From the NCBI GenBank assembly GCA_028066595.1, contig JALCBJ010000003.1, positions 72,936-136,935 on the forward strand: a stretch of DNA of 64,000 nucleotides, in the 5' to 3' direction. Source of the stretch: Thermoanaerobaculia bacterium (GTDB lineage Bacteria > Acidobacteriota > Thermoanaerobaculia > Multivoradales > J023). Position 1 is the stretch's first letter, and every line of letters starts with the position of its first letter. This document shows, one piece after another, positions 25,994-32,106 of this stretch. The notes under the pieces were generated by a model. It was given only the letters and a program-made list of their open reading frames with translations. It searched no databases and was not told where the DNA came from. A program made the translations under genes and the position numbers.

Positions 25994-27559
25994 ATGAATC
26001 TGGACCACGTCAAGAAATGGCTGTGTAGCGACCGGGTCTCTGCTGGCCTTCGGTTGACGTACCACGGGTTGGTTCTTCTCTGTCTGACCCTGGCCCTCTG
26101 GGTCTGTCTCAGGCCCTGGTTGCAACCGACTACAGCTGACGCCGTGCCGAACGGTCCTCGAATTCGCCTGGTGGGAGTGCTCGGAGCGCTGACCGCGCTA
26201 CTCGCAATATTCCTCCAGCTTCGCAACGGGAGCCGAGGCTGCTTGCGCATGACCGGGATCGAGTTTCGGCTCCTGGCATTCGTCCTGATCAGCCACTGGC
26301 TCGTCTACCTGGTGGCCTTCCAGCCCTTCGCCCTGCCGATGTTGTGGAAAACCTGGGCAGTGGCGGCCCTCGGTTTCGCCACCTTGATGGTGCTACGCCT
26401 CACGGCGGCCCAGTGGCTGAGCGGTCGGCTGCTACGAGCCGCGGATCTGCTGGTCTTTTACCTTTGCGTGCTGGCTGTAGGCGGCGAGCTGATGGCGAAG
26501 ACAACGGCCAAGATGCGTCCGTCTGTTCTCTTGTTCCATCCCGATGTGGGTGCCGAGCGAAGGGTCGAGGCCCAGCGGCGACCGCCAGGCTACATCCGCT
26601 TTGGAATGCCCGTGAACAGTCAGGGCTTCTATGATCACGAGCTGGCGGCAGAGCGCCAAGGACCACTGGTCGCCGTGGTCGGCGATTCCTTCAGCCAGGG
26701 AGTCGTGCCGCACTACTACCACTACACGACCGTCGCAGAGCGGAAAACGCCGGGGGTGGAGATCTACAATGCCGGCATTGCGGGCGTCGACCCTCGAGAG
26801 TATCTCCACCTCCTGCTGCACGATGTCCTGCCGTTGGATCCCGACATTGTGGTGATCGCTCTTTTCGTCGGCAATGACCTCACCTTCTCGTTGCCGCCTG
26901 CCGGACCGAGTCTGTTGGCGGACTGGTATTCCGCGGAGCGATCTCTCCTCATCCAGATTCCCAGACGACTGGCAGCGCTACGAGCGGCAGCCGTCAACGA
27001 GGTGCATCACGATGTATCCGTACTCGGAGGAGACTCCGAAGCCGGCATCATCGAGCAAACGCCTGCGGCGCTCGGAGCCGTCTTCCCCTGGGTACTGGAT
27101 CCTCTGCAGGAGCGACCGACCTTCCTCCGAAGGACGTTCCTCGAGATCCAAACGAAGCGAGCCCGTGACCTGAGTCTTCAGGACGATGATAGCTACCAAA
27201 GAAGATTCTCGGTCTTGCGAAGGATTGCCGACGCATGCGGGCGAACTCCGGTCTTGTTTTTGGTGATCCCGGACGAAAATCAGGTCGACGATGCTCTGTG
27301 GTCGGAGGTCCAGTCGCGAACCGAGATGCACCTCCAAAGGGACCGCCCCCAAAGGCTCCTGTTCGAGTGGTTCAAGGAGCAGGGGTTGACCTTCATCGAT
27401 CCTTTGCCTTCCTTGCGATCCGCAATGCCTCTGGAAGATGGCCACCCCCACGTTTTTCATTTGCAGGACACCCACTTGAACGCGCGTGGCAACCGCATCG
27501 TCGGCGAGGCCTTGGTCGAGGGCCTGCGACCGGTCATGGATCAACTCAAGGGTCGATGA
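25994..27559 (+). CDS. Membrane-anchored SGNH/GDSL hydrolase-like protein
   Basis: The ATG at 25994 (MNLDHVKKWLCSD) is preferred; the track start lies inside mtnA. The 521-residue protein has four N-terminal helices in its first 170 residues, then a soluble domain with SGNH blocks: VVGDSFSQG (catalytic Ser), YNAGIAGVDP, LFVGND (Asn) and LQDTHLNARGN (catalytic Asp/His). This layout resembles the acetyl-esterase or acetyltransferase partners of exported polysaccharides (AlgX/AlgJ-like). Given the upstream glycan genes, surface-polymer deacylation or acylation is a reasonable inference. Confidence 0.7.
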   Translation: MNLDHVKKWLCSDRVSAGLRLTYHGLVLLCLTLALWVCLRPWLQPTTADAVPNGPRIRLVGVLGALTALLAIFLQLRNGSRGCLRMTGIEFRLLAFVLISHWLVYLVAFQPFALPMLWKTWAVAALGFATLMVLRLTAAQWLSGRLLRAADLLVFYLCVLAVGGELMAKTTAKMRPSVLLFHPDVGAERRVEAQRRPPGYIRFGMPVNSQGFYDHELAAERQGPLVAVVGDSFSQGVVPHYYHYTTVAERKTPGVEIYNAGIAGVDPREYLHLLLHDVLPLDPDIVVIALFVGNDLTFSLPPAGPSLLADWYSAERSLLIQIPRRLAALRAAAVNEVHHDVSVLGGDSEAGIIEQTPAALGAVFPWVLDPLQERPTFLRRTFLEIQTKRARDLSLQDDDSYQRRFSVLRRIADACGRTPVLFLVIPDENQVDDALWSEVQSRTEMHLQRDRPQRLLFEWFKEQGLTFIDPLPSLRSAMPLEDGHPHVFHLQDTHLNARGNRIVGEALVEGLRPVMDQLKGR

Positions 27560-27580: not shown

Positions 27581-27617
27581 TGCCACAAACGTAGCATTTT
27601 CTGCTACATTTGTGGCA
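27581..27617. promoter_or_regulatory. BlaI-type operator palindrome
   Basis: TGCCACAAACGTAGCA (27581-27596) and TGCTACATTTGTGGCA (27602-27617) form a 16-bp inverted repeat with one mismatch and a 5-bp spacer (TTTTC). Each arm contains a TACAnnTGTA-like core (TACATTTGTG on the right), the half-dyad recognised by BlaI/MecI repressors. The element ends one base before the ATG of the blaI-like gene. Confidence 0.85.
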
Positions 27618-27618
27618 G

Positions 27619-28023
27619 ATGCGCGACGAACCAGCCTGTTCTGGCCCGGAGCCCGCCCAGCTCAGCGACGCCGAGTGGACCGTGATGGATGCGGTCTGGA
27701 AGCGTGGTGAGGTCACGGTGCGAGATGTCCTCACGGACGTCCAAGGGGAGACCGACTGGGCCTATTCGACAGTCAAGACTCTGCTCCAACGGCTGGTCGA
27801 AAAAGGCGCCGTGTCTCGCGAGAAGCGTGGCAATACCAGCGTTTTCCGGCCGGCAGTGGAACAGAAAGCGGCCCGAGGTGCTGCCCTCAGAGCGTTGGTA
27901 CGCCGCGCTTTCGATGGCACGCTCGGTACCCTCGTTCACCATCTCGTGGCCGACGAAAGACTGTCTCGCCGGGAGCGAGAGGACCTGGAACGAATCCTGC
28001 GGGATGAAGGTCTGGACCCTTGA
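27619..28023 (+). CDS. BlaI/MecI-family transcriptional repressor
   Basis: The track start is a TTG inside the operator; the ATG at 27619 (MRDEPACSGPEPAQLSDAEWTVMDAVW) is more likely. The 134-residue protein has the winged helix typical of BlaI (LSDAEWTVMDAVWKRGEVTVRDVLTDVQ, then WAYSTVKTLLQRLVEKGAVSREKRGN) and a C-terminal dimerisation helix region containing the cleavage zone. It should repress its own operon through the adjoining palindrome and be inactivated by the M56 protease. The start codon lies immediately beside the operator with no visible ribosome binding site, so the mRNA may be leaderless or very short-leadered. Confidence 0.93.
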   Translation: MRDEPACSGPEPAQLSDAEWTVMDAVWKRGEVTVRDVLTDVQGETDWAYSTVKTLLQRLVEKGAVSREKRGNTSVFRPAVEQKAARGAALRALVRRAFDGTLGTLVHHLVADERLSRREREDLERILRDEGLDP

Positions 28024-29267
28024 GCACCCTGCTCGATCTCGGAGTCCACTCCTTCTGGCACCACGTGGCGCCGTTGTCCGTCAGCGTCACGGTCTGGGTC
28101 TTGGTCGTCGCAGTGATGCAGCGCCTACTGCCGAAGAACACCTGGCCGGAGTTGCGGCTGGCGCTCTGGCTACTGATCGTCGTGCGCCTGGTCGTCCCTC
28201 TGTCCGTGTTGCCGACGTTGCCTTTCGAGGGACTCCCGTGGACGGCTCCCGGATCGATCGACGCCGTCGCCCCGACCACCGAGACGACGATCGTGGCCAT
28301 TCCCGGATTCCTGCCACCGGTGGCGGTGCCTTCGGCTGAGATCGTCGGCCCTGCCCACGAGCGTCCCCCGTCGGACCCGGCGACGGCGCTCCCCACCATT
28401 TGGCACGCCGAGGCGTTGGCGGTGGTTTGGCTCGCCGGAGCGATCGCTTTCTTCGGGATACAGCTCGCCTGGACGCGACGGACACTCACTCGATGGCGGG
28501 CTACCGGGGTCCACGTCACGGACGGCGATCTCCAGGATCTGCTAGACATCGAGGCACGGCGGATGGGCCTTACGCGACCACCGGAACTGGTGCTGACGCC
28601 CGATGTCGTAGCACCCATGGTCGCAGGTGCGATCCGACCGACCATTTTCTTACCGGCGGCGCTGCCGAGCCGACTGTCGCGAGAACTTCTGGCCGCCGTC
28701 CTCCTCCATGAGCTGGCCCATGTCCGTCGCCGAGACACCTGGTTCGGGTTGGCTTGTCTCGCGGTGCACGCAACCTATTGGTTTCACCCTGCGGTCTGGT
28801 ATTGCCGCCGCCGTGTCCATGCCCTGATCGAACCGTGCTGCGACCGCACCGTGGCCCGGGCGCTCCGGGGCGACGTCGCTAGCTATCGGCGCGCGTTGCT
28901 TCATTTCGCGCGCGCGAACCTCTCCACCCCCGGAGCCGTGGCGAACAGGTCTTTCCTCGAGCACTCGTTCCTCGCGCCGGAGAGCTTGATCTTGCTGCGG
29001 CTCCGCCTGCTGGAGAACGCGCTGGACCGGCCCTGGCGCCGCAGAGGCGCGACCACCATCGTCCTCACGTTGACAACCCTCGCCAGCCTCCCCGCTGCCG
29101 GCGCAGCCGACCGATCCGTGCAGCAAGTCCAACAAACCCTCGTCGAGCGGCCGTCGGGATGCCTGACGCTGCGCTACACGGTGTTGCGAGAACTGGCCGG
29201 GGCAACCTCCGGTCTTCCCACCACACATCAGTCCGACTCACGCCAACCCAAGGAGAGCTCTCCATGA
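28020..29267 (+). CDS. M56-family (BlaR1-like) membrane metalloprotease
   Basis: A TTG start overlaps the repressor stop (TTGA). The 415-residue protein has three N-terminal helices, a cytoplasmic protease domain with the zinc motif HELAH at residues 230-234 (LLHELAHVRRRDTWFG), WFHPAVWYCRRRVHALIEPCCD carrying the third ligand region, and a fourth helix near 355 (TIVLTLTTLASLPAAGA). BlaR1 is about 585-600 residues with a beta-lactam-binding sensor; here only about 45 residues follow the last helix, so there is no sensor domain. The signal it responds to is unknown. Confidence 0.9.
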   Translation: MSTLLDLGVHSFWHHVAPLSVSVTVWVLVVAVMQRLLPKNTWPELRLALWLLIVVRLVVPLSVLPTLPFEGLPWTAPGSIDAVAPTTETTIVAIPGFLPPVAVPSAEIVGPAHERPPSDPATALPTIWHAEALAVVWLAGAIAFFGIQLAWTRRTLTRWRATGVHVTDGDLQDLLDIEARRMGLTRPPELVLTPDVVAPMVAGAIRPTIFLPAALPSRLSRELLAAVLLHELAHVRRRDTWFGLACLAVHATYWFHPAVWYCRRRVHALIEPCCDRTVARALRGDVASYRRALLHFARANLSTPGAVANRSFLEHSFLAPESLILLRLRLLENALDRPWRRRGATTIVLTLTTLASLPAAGAADRSVQQVQQTLVERPSGCLTLRYTVLRELAGATSGLPTTHQSDSRQPKESSP

Positions 29268-29902
29268 AGGCATGCCGAACCCCGACGCTGATCATCCTCG
29301 CCTCGATGCTGTTTCTGGGAAGCACAACCGCTGGGGCTCAAACTCCCGACCAGGCCAACCAAGCCACGCCTACGGGCGAAGGCTCGGTCGATCTGGCAGC
29401 CATGATGAACCGAGCACGCGAGTTCACCGCGCCCGGCGAGCATCACCAACTCCTGTCACGGTTCCTGGGCACCTGGGACACCGAGTTCCGCATCACGATG
29501 ATGCCCAACCAGCCAGCGGAGAAAGGCGAGGCTACCTTCGGTTGGCTGGTCGACGGCCGCTGGCTGAAGCAAGAATCGACCGGGACACTGATGGGCCAGC
29601 CGATGCAAGCGTTCATGATCCTGGGCTACGACAACTTCAAGCAGAGCTATGTCACTGCGACGGTCGGCTCCGTGGACACGGCCCTCCTGACGAGCGAAGG
29701 CGATCTCGACCCGGGCGGCGAAGTCCTGATCACGTACGGCACTCTCGATGAATACCTCACCGGCGAACACGACAAGATGGTGAAGTACGTCTGGCGCTTC
29801 CATTCGGAAGATCGGATGACCATGGAGGTCCACGATCTACCCATCGGCGAGAAGAACACCCAGGTCATCGAAGTGACCTACACGAGGAAGAGCGAGTCAT
29901 GA
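29264..29902 (+). CDS. Exported DUF1579 protein
   Basis: The ATG at 29264 with AGGAGAG upstream overlaps the M56 stop by 4 bp (ATGA). The 212-residue protein has a signal peptide (LIILASMLFLGSTTAGAQ), then a DUF1579 domain: HHQLLSRFLGTWDTEFRITM, LVDGRWLKQESTGTLMGQPMQAFMILGYDNFKQSYVT and VIEVTYTRK. This lipocalin-like fold has no established function. The coupling places it under BlaI control, which is the main clue to its role. It may be a periplasmic binding or stress protein. Confidence 0.85.
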   Translation: MKACRTPTLIILASMLFLGSTTAGAQTPDQANQATPTGEGSVDLAAMMNRAREFTAPGEHHQLLSRFLGTWDTEFRITMMPNQPAEKGEATFGWLVDGRWLKQESTGTLMGQPMQAFMILGYDNFKQSYVTATVGSVDTALLTSEGDLDPGGEVLITYGTLDEYLTGEHDKMVKYVWRFHSEDRMTMEVHDLPIGEKNTQVIEVTYTRKSES

Positions 29903-30345
29903 CGGAGATCTCCCTCAGCAGGACCATAGCGGCACCAAGAAACGAGGTTTTCGCCCGCTTGAGCGACTTTCCGAAGGCTGCCGAGACCATCTCCGCGATC
30001 ACCCGAATCGAGATGTTGACCGAGGGCGATGTCGGAGTCGGAACGCGGTTCAAGGAGACCCGCAAGGTCTTTGGTCGCGAGGCCACCGAGGAAATGGAAG
30101 TCACCCGCTTCGACCCGCCACGCTCTTACACATTGGAGGCCGAGAGCCACGGCGCCCACTATGTGTCGACGTTCACCCTTGAGGAGACGTCCGACGGTAC
30201 CGAGGTGGAGCTCGTATTTCGCGCTACGCCCCTGACACTCCTGGCCAAATTCATGTCGTTTCTGACGAAACCCATGATGAGGAAGGCGATGCAGGAGTGT
30301 GCGAAGGACCTCGAGGACGTGGCACGCTCCTTCGAGGCAGGTTGA
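29899..30345 (+). CDS. SRPBCC-family protein
   Basis: The ATG at 29899 overlaps the DUF1579 stop by 4 bp. The 148-residue protein is a START/SRPBCC fold: EISLSRTIAAPRNEVFARLSDFPKAAETISAI, then a long antiparallel sheet, and a C-terminal helix LLAKFMSFLTKPMMRKAMQECAKDLEDVA. Such proteins bind hydrophobic ligands or act as cyclases or polyketide partners. It has no signal peptide and is probably cytoplasmic. The last 95 bp overlap the 3' end of the opposite-strand flavoprotein gene. Confidence 0.85.
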   Translation: MTEISLSRTIAAPRNEVFARLSDFPKAAETISAITRIEMLTEGDVGVGTRFKETRKVFGREATEEMEVTRFDPPRSYTLEAESHGAHYVSTFTLEETSDGTEVELVFRATPLTLLAKFMSFLTKPMMRKAMQECAKDLEDVARSFEAG

Positions 30346-31408
30346 GTCTTCGGGCGATGGTCGCCGCGATGGTCCGCGCGTCTCTCGCCATACCGTGCAG
30401 GAATTGACTGTCGGCGCCATGAGTACACGGGAATCCGAGGAAGAACAGGTCGGGCAACCGGGGTGATTCTCCATGCTCTACCAAGGGATAACCTTGCTCG
30501 GAGCGAGGCAAGTCGGCGGATAGAAAGGGCAGCTCGAATCGGTATCCGGTGGCTAGCACCACCAGATCTGGCGACCAGGATGGCGATGCGTCAGCGAAGA
30601 CGGCCGTGCCGGCATCAAGTCGAGCGAGCGGCCCTCGCACCTGAATTCTCCGGCTGGCGAGAAGACTGCCGAAGCTGTCGTCGATTCCCGGAAAACGCCA
30701 GCCGGACCGACACCGCTGGCGCACGAAAAAACGGGGTAGCCGACGCAACAGTGGAAACGTCACGTGGCGCAAGTCAAGACCGAAGATCTTGCGCGGATAA
30801 GCAACGACCCGGCGACGGGTGCTCATCACGACCCTCGCGCCTGCACTGGCACACTCCTCTGCCAACTCGACGGCACGCATACCGCTGCCGACGATCAACA
30901 CCCGTTTGGTCCGATGTGCCTGAATGCCCCGCCAGTCACGGGAATGGAGAACCTCCGGCATGGTCGGACCTCCGGCCTCAAGCTCGATCCCGTCGGGAAT
31001 TACAGGATGGTCGCACATGCCGGTGGCAACGACGACGAACCGAGCTCGCGCAGATCGCGATCGCGAATCGAAATCGGCCCAGTATCCAATTCCATCCTCG
31101 GCCGCCTCCAGCCGTGTAACACACCGCTGCTCCACGACCAGCCCGGCCCTTCGGCCATAGTCAGCAAGGTATGCAGCGTATTCGCTCGCACGAGTGTACG
31201 GACCTGATGCCTGGAGCGCCCGGTCCGGCAGATCCAAGTAGCGACTCAGTGAGGAGAGAACCAGCGGTGCATACATCCGCGTGTAGGCACCTCCCATCGC
31301 TCCATGACGATCGACGAGTCTGACCCCGATTCCTCGCTGCACCAAGCAAGCAGCAACAGCCAGCCCGGCCGGACCCGAACCGATCACGAGCACGGGTGGC
31401 GTACTCAC
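30251..31408 (-). CDS. FAD/NAD(P)-dependent flavoprotein monooxygenase-like
   Basis: The 385-residue protein starts with GTG at 31408. Two Rossmann sites are visible: FAD site VLVIGSGPAGLAVAACLVQRGIGVRLVD near the start and NADPH site VLIVGSGMRAVELAEECASAGARVVMSTRRR in the middle. VVLATGYRF precedes the C-terminal region. It resembles flavin monooxygenases (FMO/CzcO type) that oxidise small molecules; the substrate is unknown. The last 25-30 residues are Ser/Pro/Arg-rich and not family-like, matching the segment that overlaps the SRPBCC gene. It overlaps the upstream methyltransferase stop by 4 bp (GTGA). Confidence 0.82.
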   Translation of the reverse strand: MSTPPVLVIGSGPAGLAVAACLVQRGIGVRLVDRHGAMGGAYTRMYAPLVLSSLSRYLDLPDRALQASGPYTRASEYAAYLADYGRRAGLVVEQRCVTRLEAAEDGIGYWADFDSRSRSARARFVVVATGMCDHPVIPDGIELEAGGPTMPEVLHSRDWRGIQAHRTKRVLIVGSGMRAVELAEECASAGARVVMSTRRRVVAYPRKIFGLDLRHVTFPLLRRLPRFFVRQRCRSGWRFPGIDDSFGSLLASRRIQVRGPLARLDAGTAVFADASPSWSPDLVVLATGYRFELPFLSADLPRSEQGYPLVEHGESPRLPDLFFLGFPCTHGADSQFLHGMARDARTIAATIARRLNLPRRSVPRPRGPSHTPASPSSSWVSSETT

Positions 31409-32106
31409 CTACGACAACTCCAGACCATCGCAGGAGGTAGGTTTCTCCACACGACACCATGAGTTTCGACATCATCGAACACGCGAGGAAACTCTCGGTC
31501 GAGGCGCCGGGCAGGCAAGAAAATGCCACCCGACACGTAGGAGTACGTCACGAGCTGTCCAGCCGGACCGATGGCCTGTGCGGCGGCTTCTAGACATGCC
31601 TTCCTATCCACCCGACTGAGGATCGACCAGGGCAGGGAGGCAACGACGCGAGTCGGCTCGACGTCCGCGGCTCGTAGGAGCTCGGACAGTCCTAGGGCAG
31701 AACCATGGACAAAGGAGAGGTCGGGAAACGCTGTCCGCAGACCTTCGACGAGCTCGGCGCGCACTTCGATTCCCACGTAGCGACCGGGATTCAGCCCGCG
31801 GCGCAGCAAGGCCCGGGTCAGAGCACCCGTGCCGGGTCCAAGCTCGAGCACGTGCGGCGAGTCGCCGAGGTCAAGCCGAGACACGACCGCATCCGCCAGC
31901 GCCTGCGAGCTCGGCGCGATGGAAGCGATCGTTCGAGGCGCGGTCACCAAGGCGCGAAGCCACAGAAGCTTCTCCGACAAGGGCCGCCGGTCAGAGGTCA
32001 ACGGAACGAACGGCTCGGCTCGGAAGGCAGCGCACGGAACCTCAACCGACGGCGCGTCGCAGCCAGGCTCCAGGCGTGTCAGCGAAACATCATCGCTCGA
32101 AGTCAA
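31405..32106 (-). CDS. SAM-dependent methyltransferase (phospholipid N-methyltransferase-like)
   Basis: The 233-residue protein has motif I LELGPGTGALTRALLRRG, acidic motif II YVGIEVRAELVEGL, and a motif IV segment VVASLPWSI. The long N-terminal helix (PLSEKLLWLRALVTAPRTIASIAPSSQALADAVV) is typical of PmtA-like phospholipid methyltransferases, so phosphatidylethanolamine methylation is possible; rRNA dimethylases share parts of this pattern. It precedes and is coupled to the flavoprotein gene, which suggests a two-step modification. Confidence 0.78.
   Translation of the reverse strand: MTSSDDVSLTRLEPGCDAPSVEVPCAAFRAEPFVPLTSDRRPLSEKLLWLRALVTAPRTIASIAPSSQALADAVVSRLDLGDSPHVLELGPGTGALTRALLRRGLNPGRYVGIEVRAELVEGLRTAFPDLSFVHGSALGLSELLRAADVEPTRVVASLPWSILSRVDRKACLEAAAQAIGPAGQLVTYSYVSGGIFLPARRLDREFPRVFDDVETHGVVWRNLPPAMVWSCRR

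Follow-up and report, generated by a model that had tools for sequence, protein, structure and literature searches.

A recurrent BlaI-M56-DUF1579 operon with a sensorless metalloprotease and a candidate dedicated partner

Introduction

In the staphylococcal penicillin-sensing system, the receptor BlaR1 cuts the repressor BlaI (PMC9834060). A sensorless M56 homologue paired with BlaI is also described in Mycobacterium tuberculosis, and the parts of PMC9834060 that deal with this pair treat its activation as an open point. Copper repressors provide a further point of reference, as the published CopR/CopY operator, as given in the relevant part of PMC7253601, has the core TACANNTGTA.

Here we describe a four-gene operon in which BlaI and a short M56 protease are joined to a DUF1579 and an SRPBCC protein. 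A literature search returned no description of a BlaI-M56-DUF1579 module and no paper on DUF1579, in keeping with an initial annotation that did not recognise such a unit as described; the novelty claimed there narrows to the DUF1579 partnership, for which we found no precedent in the literature, since a sensorless M56 with BlaI is already known from M. tuberculosis (PMC9834060, in the part covering that pair).

Results

The window, the whole 64,000-nucleotide stretch of DNA that we analysed, carries four consecutive genes on the plus strand: blaI (27619-28023, +; ATG at 27619, with an additional in-frame TTG at 27610), encoding a BlaI/MecI/CopY-family repressor of 134 aa (Pfam PF03965); a gene for a short M56 metalloprotease of 415 aa (28020-29267, +; TTG start; PF05569); a DUF1579 gene of 212 aa (29264-29902, +; PF07617); and an SRPBCC (Polyketide_cyc2) gene of 148 aa (29899-30345, +; PF10604). 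Open reading frames and sequence confirmed both these coordinates and the three 4-bp overlaps that had been said to join the genes (TTGA, 28020-28023; ATGA, 29264-29267; ATGA, 29899-29902). Upstream, a GDSL-like gene ends at 27559, ahead of the operators (27582-27616), and the gene downstream of SRPBCC is convergent. This ORF, for an FAD-dependent oxidoreductase (30251-31408, −), overlaps the SRPBCC 3′ end by ~95 bp (30251-30345) and shares a 4-bp overlap with a methyltransferase gene (31405-32106) that resembles the phospholipid N-methyltransferase PmtA at a score below the curated cut-off. A promoter scan of the operon and window found no sigma-70-type promoter, a terminator scan of the operon found one terminator-like site (on the opposite strand, under the shuffled mean), PADLOC gave no defence model, and the sole PHROGs match linked BlaI to a phage transcriptional regulator family. 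Pfam found neither a beta-lactamase nor a resistant PBP among the four operon genes or their nearest neighbours, and beta-lactamase was not a recurrent neighbour family across the 40 loci described below, which bears out its reported absence.

In BlaI, the Penicillinase_R domain (PF03965) covers residues 15-128 of 134 (1.6e-33), the family profile matches MecI/BlaI structures (2.2e-26 to MecI), and H108-L109 falls opposite the MecI/BlaI cut site N101-F102 in the alignment; the score against CopY_TcrY (TIGR02698; 89.5 bits vs. a cut-off of 121.95) leaves the protein outside the CopY family proper. Two predicted 14-bp palindromes lie 5′ of blaI, namely GCCACAAACGTAGC (27582-27595), a TACAnnTGTA-like BlaI/CopY box with 2 mismatches that occupies the same place in three other loci (L006-L008), and GCTACATTTGTGGC (27603-27616), with 1 mismatch and 21 bp from the former, centre to centre. 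Having a predicted TACAnnTGTA palindrome as the operator of its own promoter places the repressor with BlaI/MecI/CopY. The exact 21-bp pair preceded blaI in 22 of 33 loci (vs. a mean of 0.04 in shuffles), each other spacing from 12 to 39 bp occurred in at most one locus, and at least one site with no more than 1 mismatch was present in 28/33 loci (vs. a mean of 1.4 in shuffles). The window's operator pattern occurs at five places in the genome, two at this operon and three elsewhere, and, because the latter are single sites and all lie within ORFs, the regulon looks limited to this operon at the pattern stringency used. We therefore rejected a wider regulon, and the earlier description of the operon as a stress unit finds no support here, the genome having this pair of operators just once.

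The protease had been described as lacking a beta-lactam sensor, and we found this to be correct: the C-terminus is short, Peptidase_M56 covers residues 18-299 only (Pfam, 7.9e-37) with no Pfam domain behind it, Pfam and NCBIfam detected no C-terminal penicillin-binding sensor domain after the protease, and the blaR1_generic score (88 bits vs. a cut-off of 400) is not that of a beta-lactam receptor. Its gluzincin residues (HELAH at 230-234 and E271xxxD275, with H230, E231, H234, E271 and D275 unchanged throughout 32 homologues) form the HExxH and ExxxD motifs present in BlaR1 (PMC9834060, in its account of these motifs) and mark it as an M56 peptidase of BlaR1 type. The last hydrophobic segment (344-362) is followed by ~50 residues, and this tail (residues 363-415; 29106-29264, +), which contains the motif G380-C381-L-x-L-R385, is probably periplasmic, because BlaR1 has an N-out/C-out plan (PMC9834060, in its topology account) and basic residues flank the segments. 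The structural model, which has a pLDDT of 79.4 and is of low quality around the TM2-TM3 loop, matched BlaR1 best, with a large rmsd, and predicted a tail helix at 381-397 with moderate confidence. The motif, as G-(C/S)-[LFMIV]-x-x-R, was present in 32/32 aligned operon M56s (31 with Cys), 17-57 residues from the C-terminus, and absent near the C-terminus of the remaining M56s that we examined; in a few of these non-operon proteins, a chance match lies ~83 residues after HExxH. Among more distant DUF1579-linked M56s the motif is looser, and the tails of L144, L149 and L150 are clearly different.

The DUF1579 protein is a full-length member of its family (PF07617, with residues 57-208 spanning model positions 2-155 of 155; 118.5 bits vs. 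25.2, 3.3e-34), and a signal-peptide-like hydrophobic segment (7-25) predicts its export. A PDB sequence search gave no meaningful match; the AlphaFold2 model (pLDDT 86.7) is a ten-stranded beta barrel whose nearest solved folds by Foldseek were OssO/OlmO, RsfG and nitrobindin (E 7e-07 to 1e-04). The initial annotation had called the protein lipocalin-like; the modelled fold resembles nitrobindin more than a classical lipocalin. Residues 158-174 (YGTLDEYLTGEHDKMVK; 29735-29785, +) are nearly invariant in operon-linked members and mostly different in unlinked ones, and D138, D147, much of 158-174, H190 and 192-194, among others, are common to linked DUF1579s and rare or absent in unlinked ones. 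From this co-occurrence and parallel conservation, we infer that the M56 tail motif and the invariant residues of linked DUF1579s would touch each other. In a tree of 62 DUF1579s, which is unrooted and whose bootstrap had not settled, a branch with support of 100/97 split unlinked members from linked ones plus three exceptions. The same genome holds two further paralogues (G000:C4:6887-7471 and G000:C178:69707-70162), and a single operator-like site lies ~5 kb from the first of these, within an ORF.

To ask how widely this arrangement recurs, we surveyed gene neighbourhoods. An order-wide M56 search yielded four closer relatives (G003, G004, G035 and G066), and in all four DUF1579 and SRPBCC come next (the G066 contig stops at M56, so that its BlaI region is off the contig). 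A DUF1579-alignment scan of GTDB genomes yielded 40 loci, including the near-duplicates L057/L060 and L072/L073, in MAGs labelled by their submitters as Acidobacteria, Planctomycetota (many of them Phycisphaerae), Krumholzibacteriota, Delta-/Gammaproteobacteria and Actinomycetota, and in one complete planctomycete genome. Two loci are cut at DUF1579, and in 34 of the 38 informative upstream, M56 lies immediately before DUF1579, with BlaI visible in 31 of these 34; one of the remaining four (L044) has BlaI directly before DUF1579 and three have neither BlaI nor M56. BlaI and M56 genes share a 4-bp overlap in 29/32 cases, counting the window. An all-vs-all comparison of neighbouring ORFs across the 40 loci revealed no other recurrent neighbour family, barring antisense shadows and groups of 2-3 loci. 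The neighbourhood survey that had been proposed thus recovers the same order throughout most informative loci, and BlaI-M56-DUF1579 is a recurrent module spanning several phyla.

Co-conservation of all four genes, as initially implied, holds for this core and breaks down at SRPBCC, which is missing from 11 of the 34 M56-bearing loci and present in 25 of all 40. The window's SRPBCC belongs to Polyketide_cyc2 (PF10604; 71.7 bits vs. 27.4, 1e-19) and has no export signal visible in the sequence; assignment as an Rv0910-type toxin (NF047960) was rejected (39.1 bits, cut-off 100). Another species of the genus carries a lone SRPBCC 63-64% identical to it (L186:5907-6344, genome G006, 98% complete), with no BlaI, M56 or DUF1579 beside it. 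On this comparative evidence, SRPBCC is an accessory member of the operon and not part of its core.

Is DUF1579 tied to the protease specifically? When 396 genomes from this phylum were scanned, M56 accompanied DUF1579 at each of the five best loci, while 25 more distant DUF1579 loci had neither BlaI nor M56 within 1.5 kb; in Planctomycetota, more distant DUF1579s are linked too and the boundary between linked and unlinked is not sharp (these two scans and the M56 scan described next scored the best few candidates per genome, so genome counts are lower bounds). We also started from M56, with a profile built from operon M56s, in 294 Planctomycetota genomes: among the best 30 loci, two of them cut by contig ends, 14/14 short M56s (≤210 residues after HExxH; the broken copy L161 counted as short) adjoin DUF1579, vs. 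0/14 long ones (≥424 residues). Seven of the 14 long M56s extend past the end of the retrieved sequence, and their neighbourhood was judged from a genome-wide DUF1579 list, which holds no match on the same contig. The probability of this split by chance is 2.5e-8 if loci are treated as independent, a figure overstated by kinship; M56-DUF1579 distances correlate at 0.42, exceeding all 999 permutations. The window's order also contains short M56s that lack both the tail motif and DUF1579, so a short M56 is not per se DUF1579-dependent and the pairing rule applies to tail-bearing M56s. The exceptions are a variant operon, L044 (4530-6031), in which BlaI, DUF1579 and SRPBCC follow intact operators, M56 is missing and the BlaI stop adjoins the DUF1579 start, and three loci (L061, L071, L076) with linked-clade DUF1579s and no BlaI or M56 nearby. 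We found no convincing tail-bearing M56 elsewhere in these four genomes; a match in L120 was rejected as a different sequence (GCSKTEARQ). Nor did we see a natural M56-DUF1579 fusion, the six long M56s analysed by Pfam carrying HEAT, PEGA, ACR_tran or no further domain. Taken as comparative sequence evidence, these patterns suggest that DUF1579 is most likely the dedicated partner of the tail-bearing short M56. The initial annotation had cast DUF1579 as an output; it need not be one, and, because short tail-bearing M56s have DUF1579 and long M56s do not (14/14 vs. 0/14), it may instead be the independent signal-domain gene that was there named as a contrary explanation.

Discussion

We propose that the operon represses itself and is switched by proteolysis, in the manner of BlaI/BlaR1, with a sensorless protease and DUF1579 as its dedicated partner. 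Taken whole, we regard this explanation as evenly balanced between right and wrong; its foundation, an operon under a BlaI/M56 switch, we consider highly probable. BlaI dimers would sit on the two operators 21 bp apart before blaI and repress all four genes, and M56, with its transmembrane helices and cytoplasmic gluzincin site, would be the transducer that cuts BlaI once activated. The short periplasmic tail would stand in for the penicillin-binding domain, and DUF1579, exported to the periplasm as a ligand-binding barrel of the nitrobindin type, would partner that tail and either pass the signal on to the protease or, after its synthesis, switch the response off; SRPBCC would play an accessory part, binding a ligand in the cytoplasm. 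Direct observation here extends to gene order, conservation, operators, active-site residues and the tail motif, and the barrel fold comes from a model, while BlaI cleavage, topology, periplasmic location and the contact between DUF1579 and the tail are our interpretation of them. That DUF1579 acts on the protease is a plausible proposal that falls somewhat short of probable.

The same switch could operate with DUF1579 and SRPBCC as plain outputs, that is, binders or carriers of hydrophobic ligands, and with M56 sensing the membrane or a ligand via its tail and TM2-TM3 loop. DUF1579 has the downstream position expected of an output gene, SRPBCC too comes from a family of ligand binders, L044 keeps DUF1579 without M56, and a tail conserved in 32/32 proteins would suit a sensing role; however, this reading does not account for the presence of DUF1579 with every short and no long M56 in the Planctomycetota set, or for the extra invariant patch that linked DUF1579s have and unlinked ones lack, and we consider it possible but doubtful. 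A further idea is that control of the protease comes from elsewhere, for instance from an unlinked membrane protein or kinase, as suggested for the sensorless M. tuberculosis homologue, with the tail as a structural element. Its support is literature precedent, PknB being discussed for M. tuberculosis in the relevant part of PMC9834060, but no other neighbour recurs and the tail motif tracks DUF1579, which makes it improbable.

More improbable still is a model in which sensing falls to BlaI, in the way that CopY senses copper, and M56 is not the switch. The CopY_TcrY match and the resemblance of the operator to the cop box (PMC7253601, for the published box) would fit, but the match scores under the family cut-off, the locus has no copper-export gene, and an M56 with intact catalytic residues adjoins BlaI in nearly all loci. 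An accidental neighbourhood of the four genes is scarcely credible and already contradicted by the same order recurring in several phyla with unrelated flanks.

The proposed partnership of DUF1579 with the M56 tail can be carried one step further, into a BlaR1-type receptor split over two genes, with the M56 tail as docking site and the DUF1579 barrel as a sensor in trans, so that a ligand bound to DUF1579 outside would lead to BlaI cleavage inside. We offer this as a speculative and, on balance, unlikely extension; if true, it would be the first function for DUF1579, a family for which we found no paper. The module ties DUF1579 to a regulatory circuit and offers a compact, testable answer to how a sensorless M56 might be activated, namely that a separate exported protein replaces the missing sensor.

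Several known systems share parts of this plan. By model, DUF1579 has a fold like those of nitrobindin, the OlmO/OssO spirocyclases and RsfG, with identity of just 11-18%. The CopY/CopR copper repressors (PMC7253601, as far as their operator is described) have the repressor family and the operator core in common with the operon, but copper-export genes are absent here and the score is below the CopY cut-off. Long M56s also stand beside BlaI in the same phyla (for example L039; L040, with HEAT repeats; L183, with PEGA); these differ in that the chain continues C-terminally for several hundred residues beyond HExxH, and they have no DUF1579 nearby. The second of these (L040:7546-9348), with HEAT_2 repeats fused behind M56 (Pfam, 3.5e-46), belongs to a set of three further BlaI-M56 pairs in the genome. 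Five loci of one family (L024, L026, L029, L030 and L031), from the same order, have M56s of 428-520 aa followed, at about −47 to +13 bp, by a PAS/LuxR-type-like ORF (LTPAESRVAVSLAEGLT...) and lack a BlaI match; they may represent a further kind of protease-regulator pair. M. tuberculosis BlaI (Rv1846c) and its sensorless M56 show the same pairing as here; we compare them by description only, and the part of PMC9834060 devoted to them does not mention a DUF1579 or SRPBCC partner. With the staphylococcal BlaI-BlaR1 and MecI-MecR1 systems, the operon shares a BlaI-type repressor, an M56 gluzincin with HExxH and ExxxD, a predicted membrane plan and TACAnnTGTA-like operators at the regulator gene, and it differs in the length of its M56 (415 aa vs. 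about 585), which has no penicillin-binding sensor domain, and in having a DUF1579 gene and a short tail with the G-C motif instead of a beta-lactamase or PBP2a gene. Although it fails the sensor and output tests that define a beta-lactam receptor, the operon is BlaI/BlaR1-like in plan.
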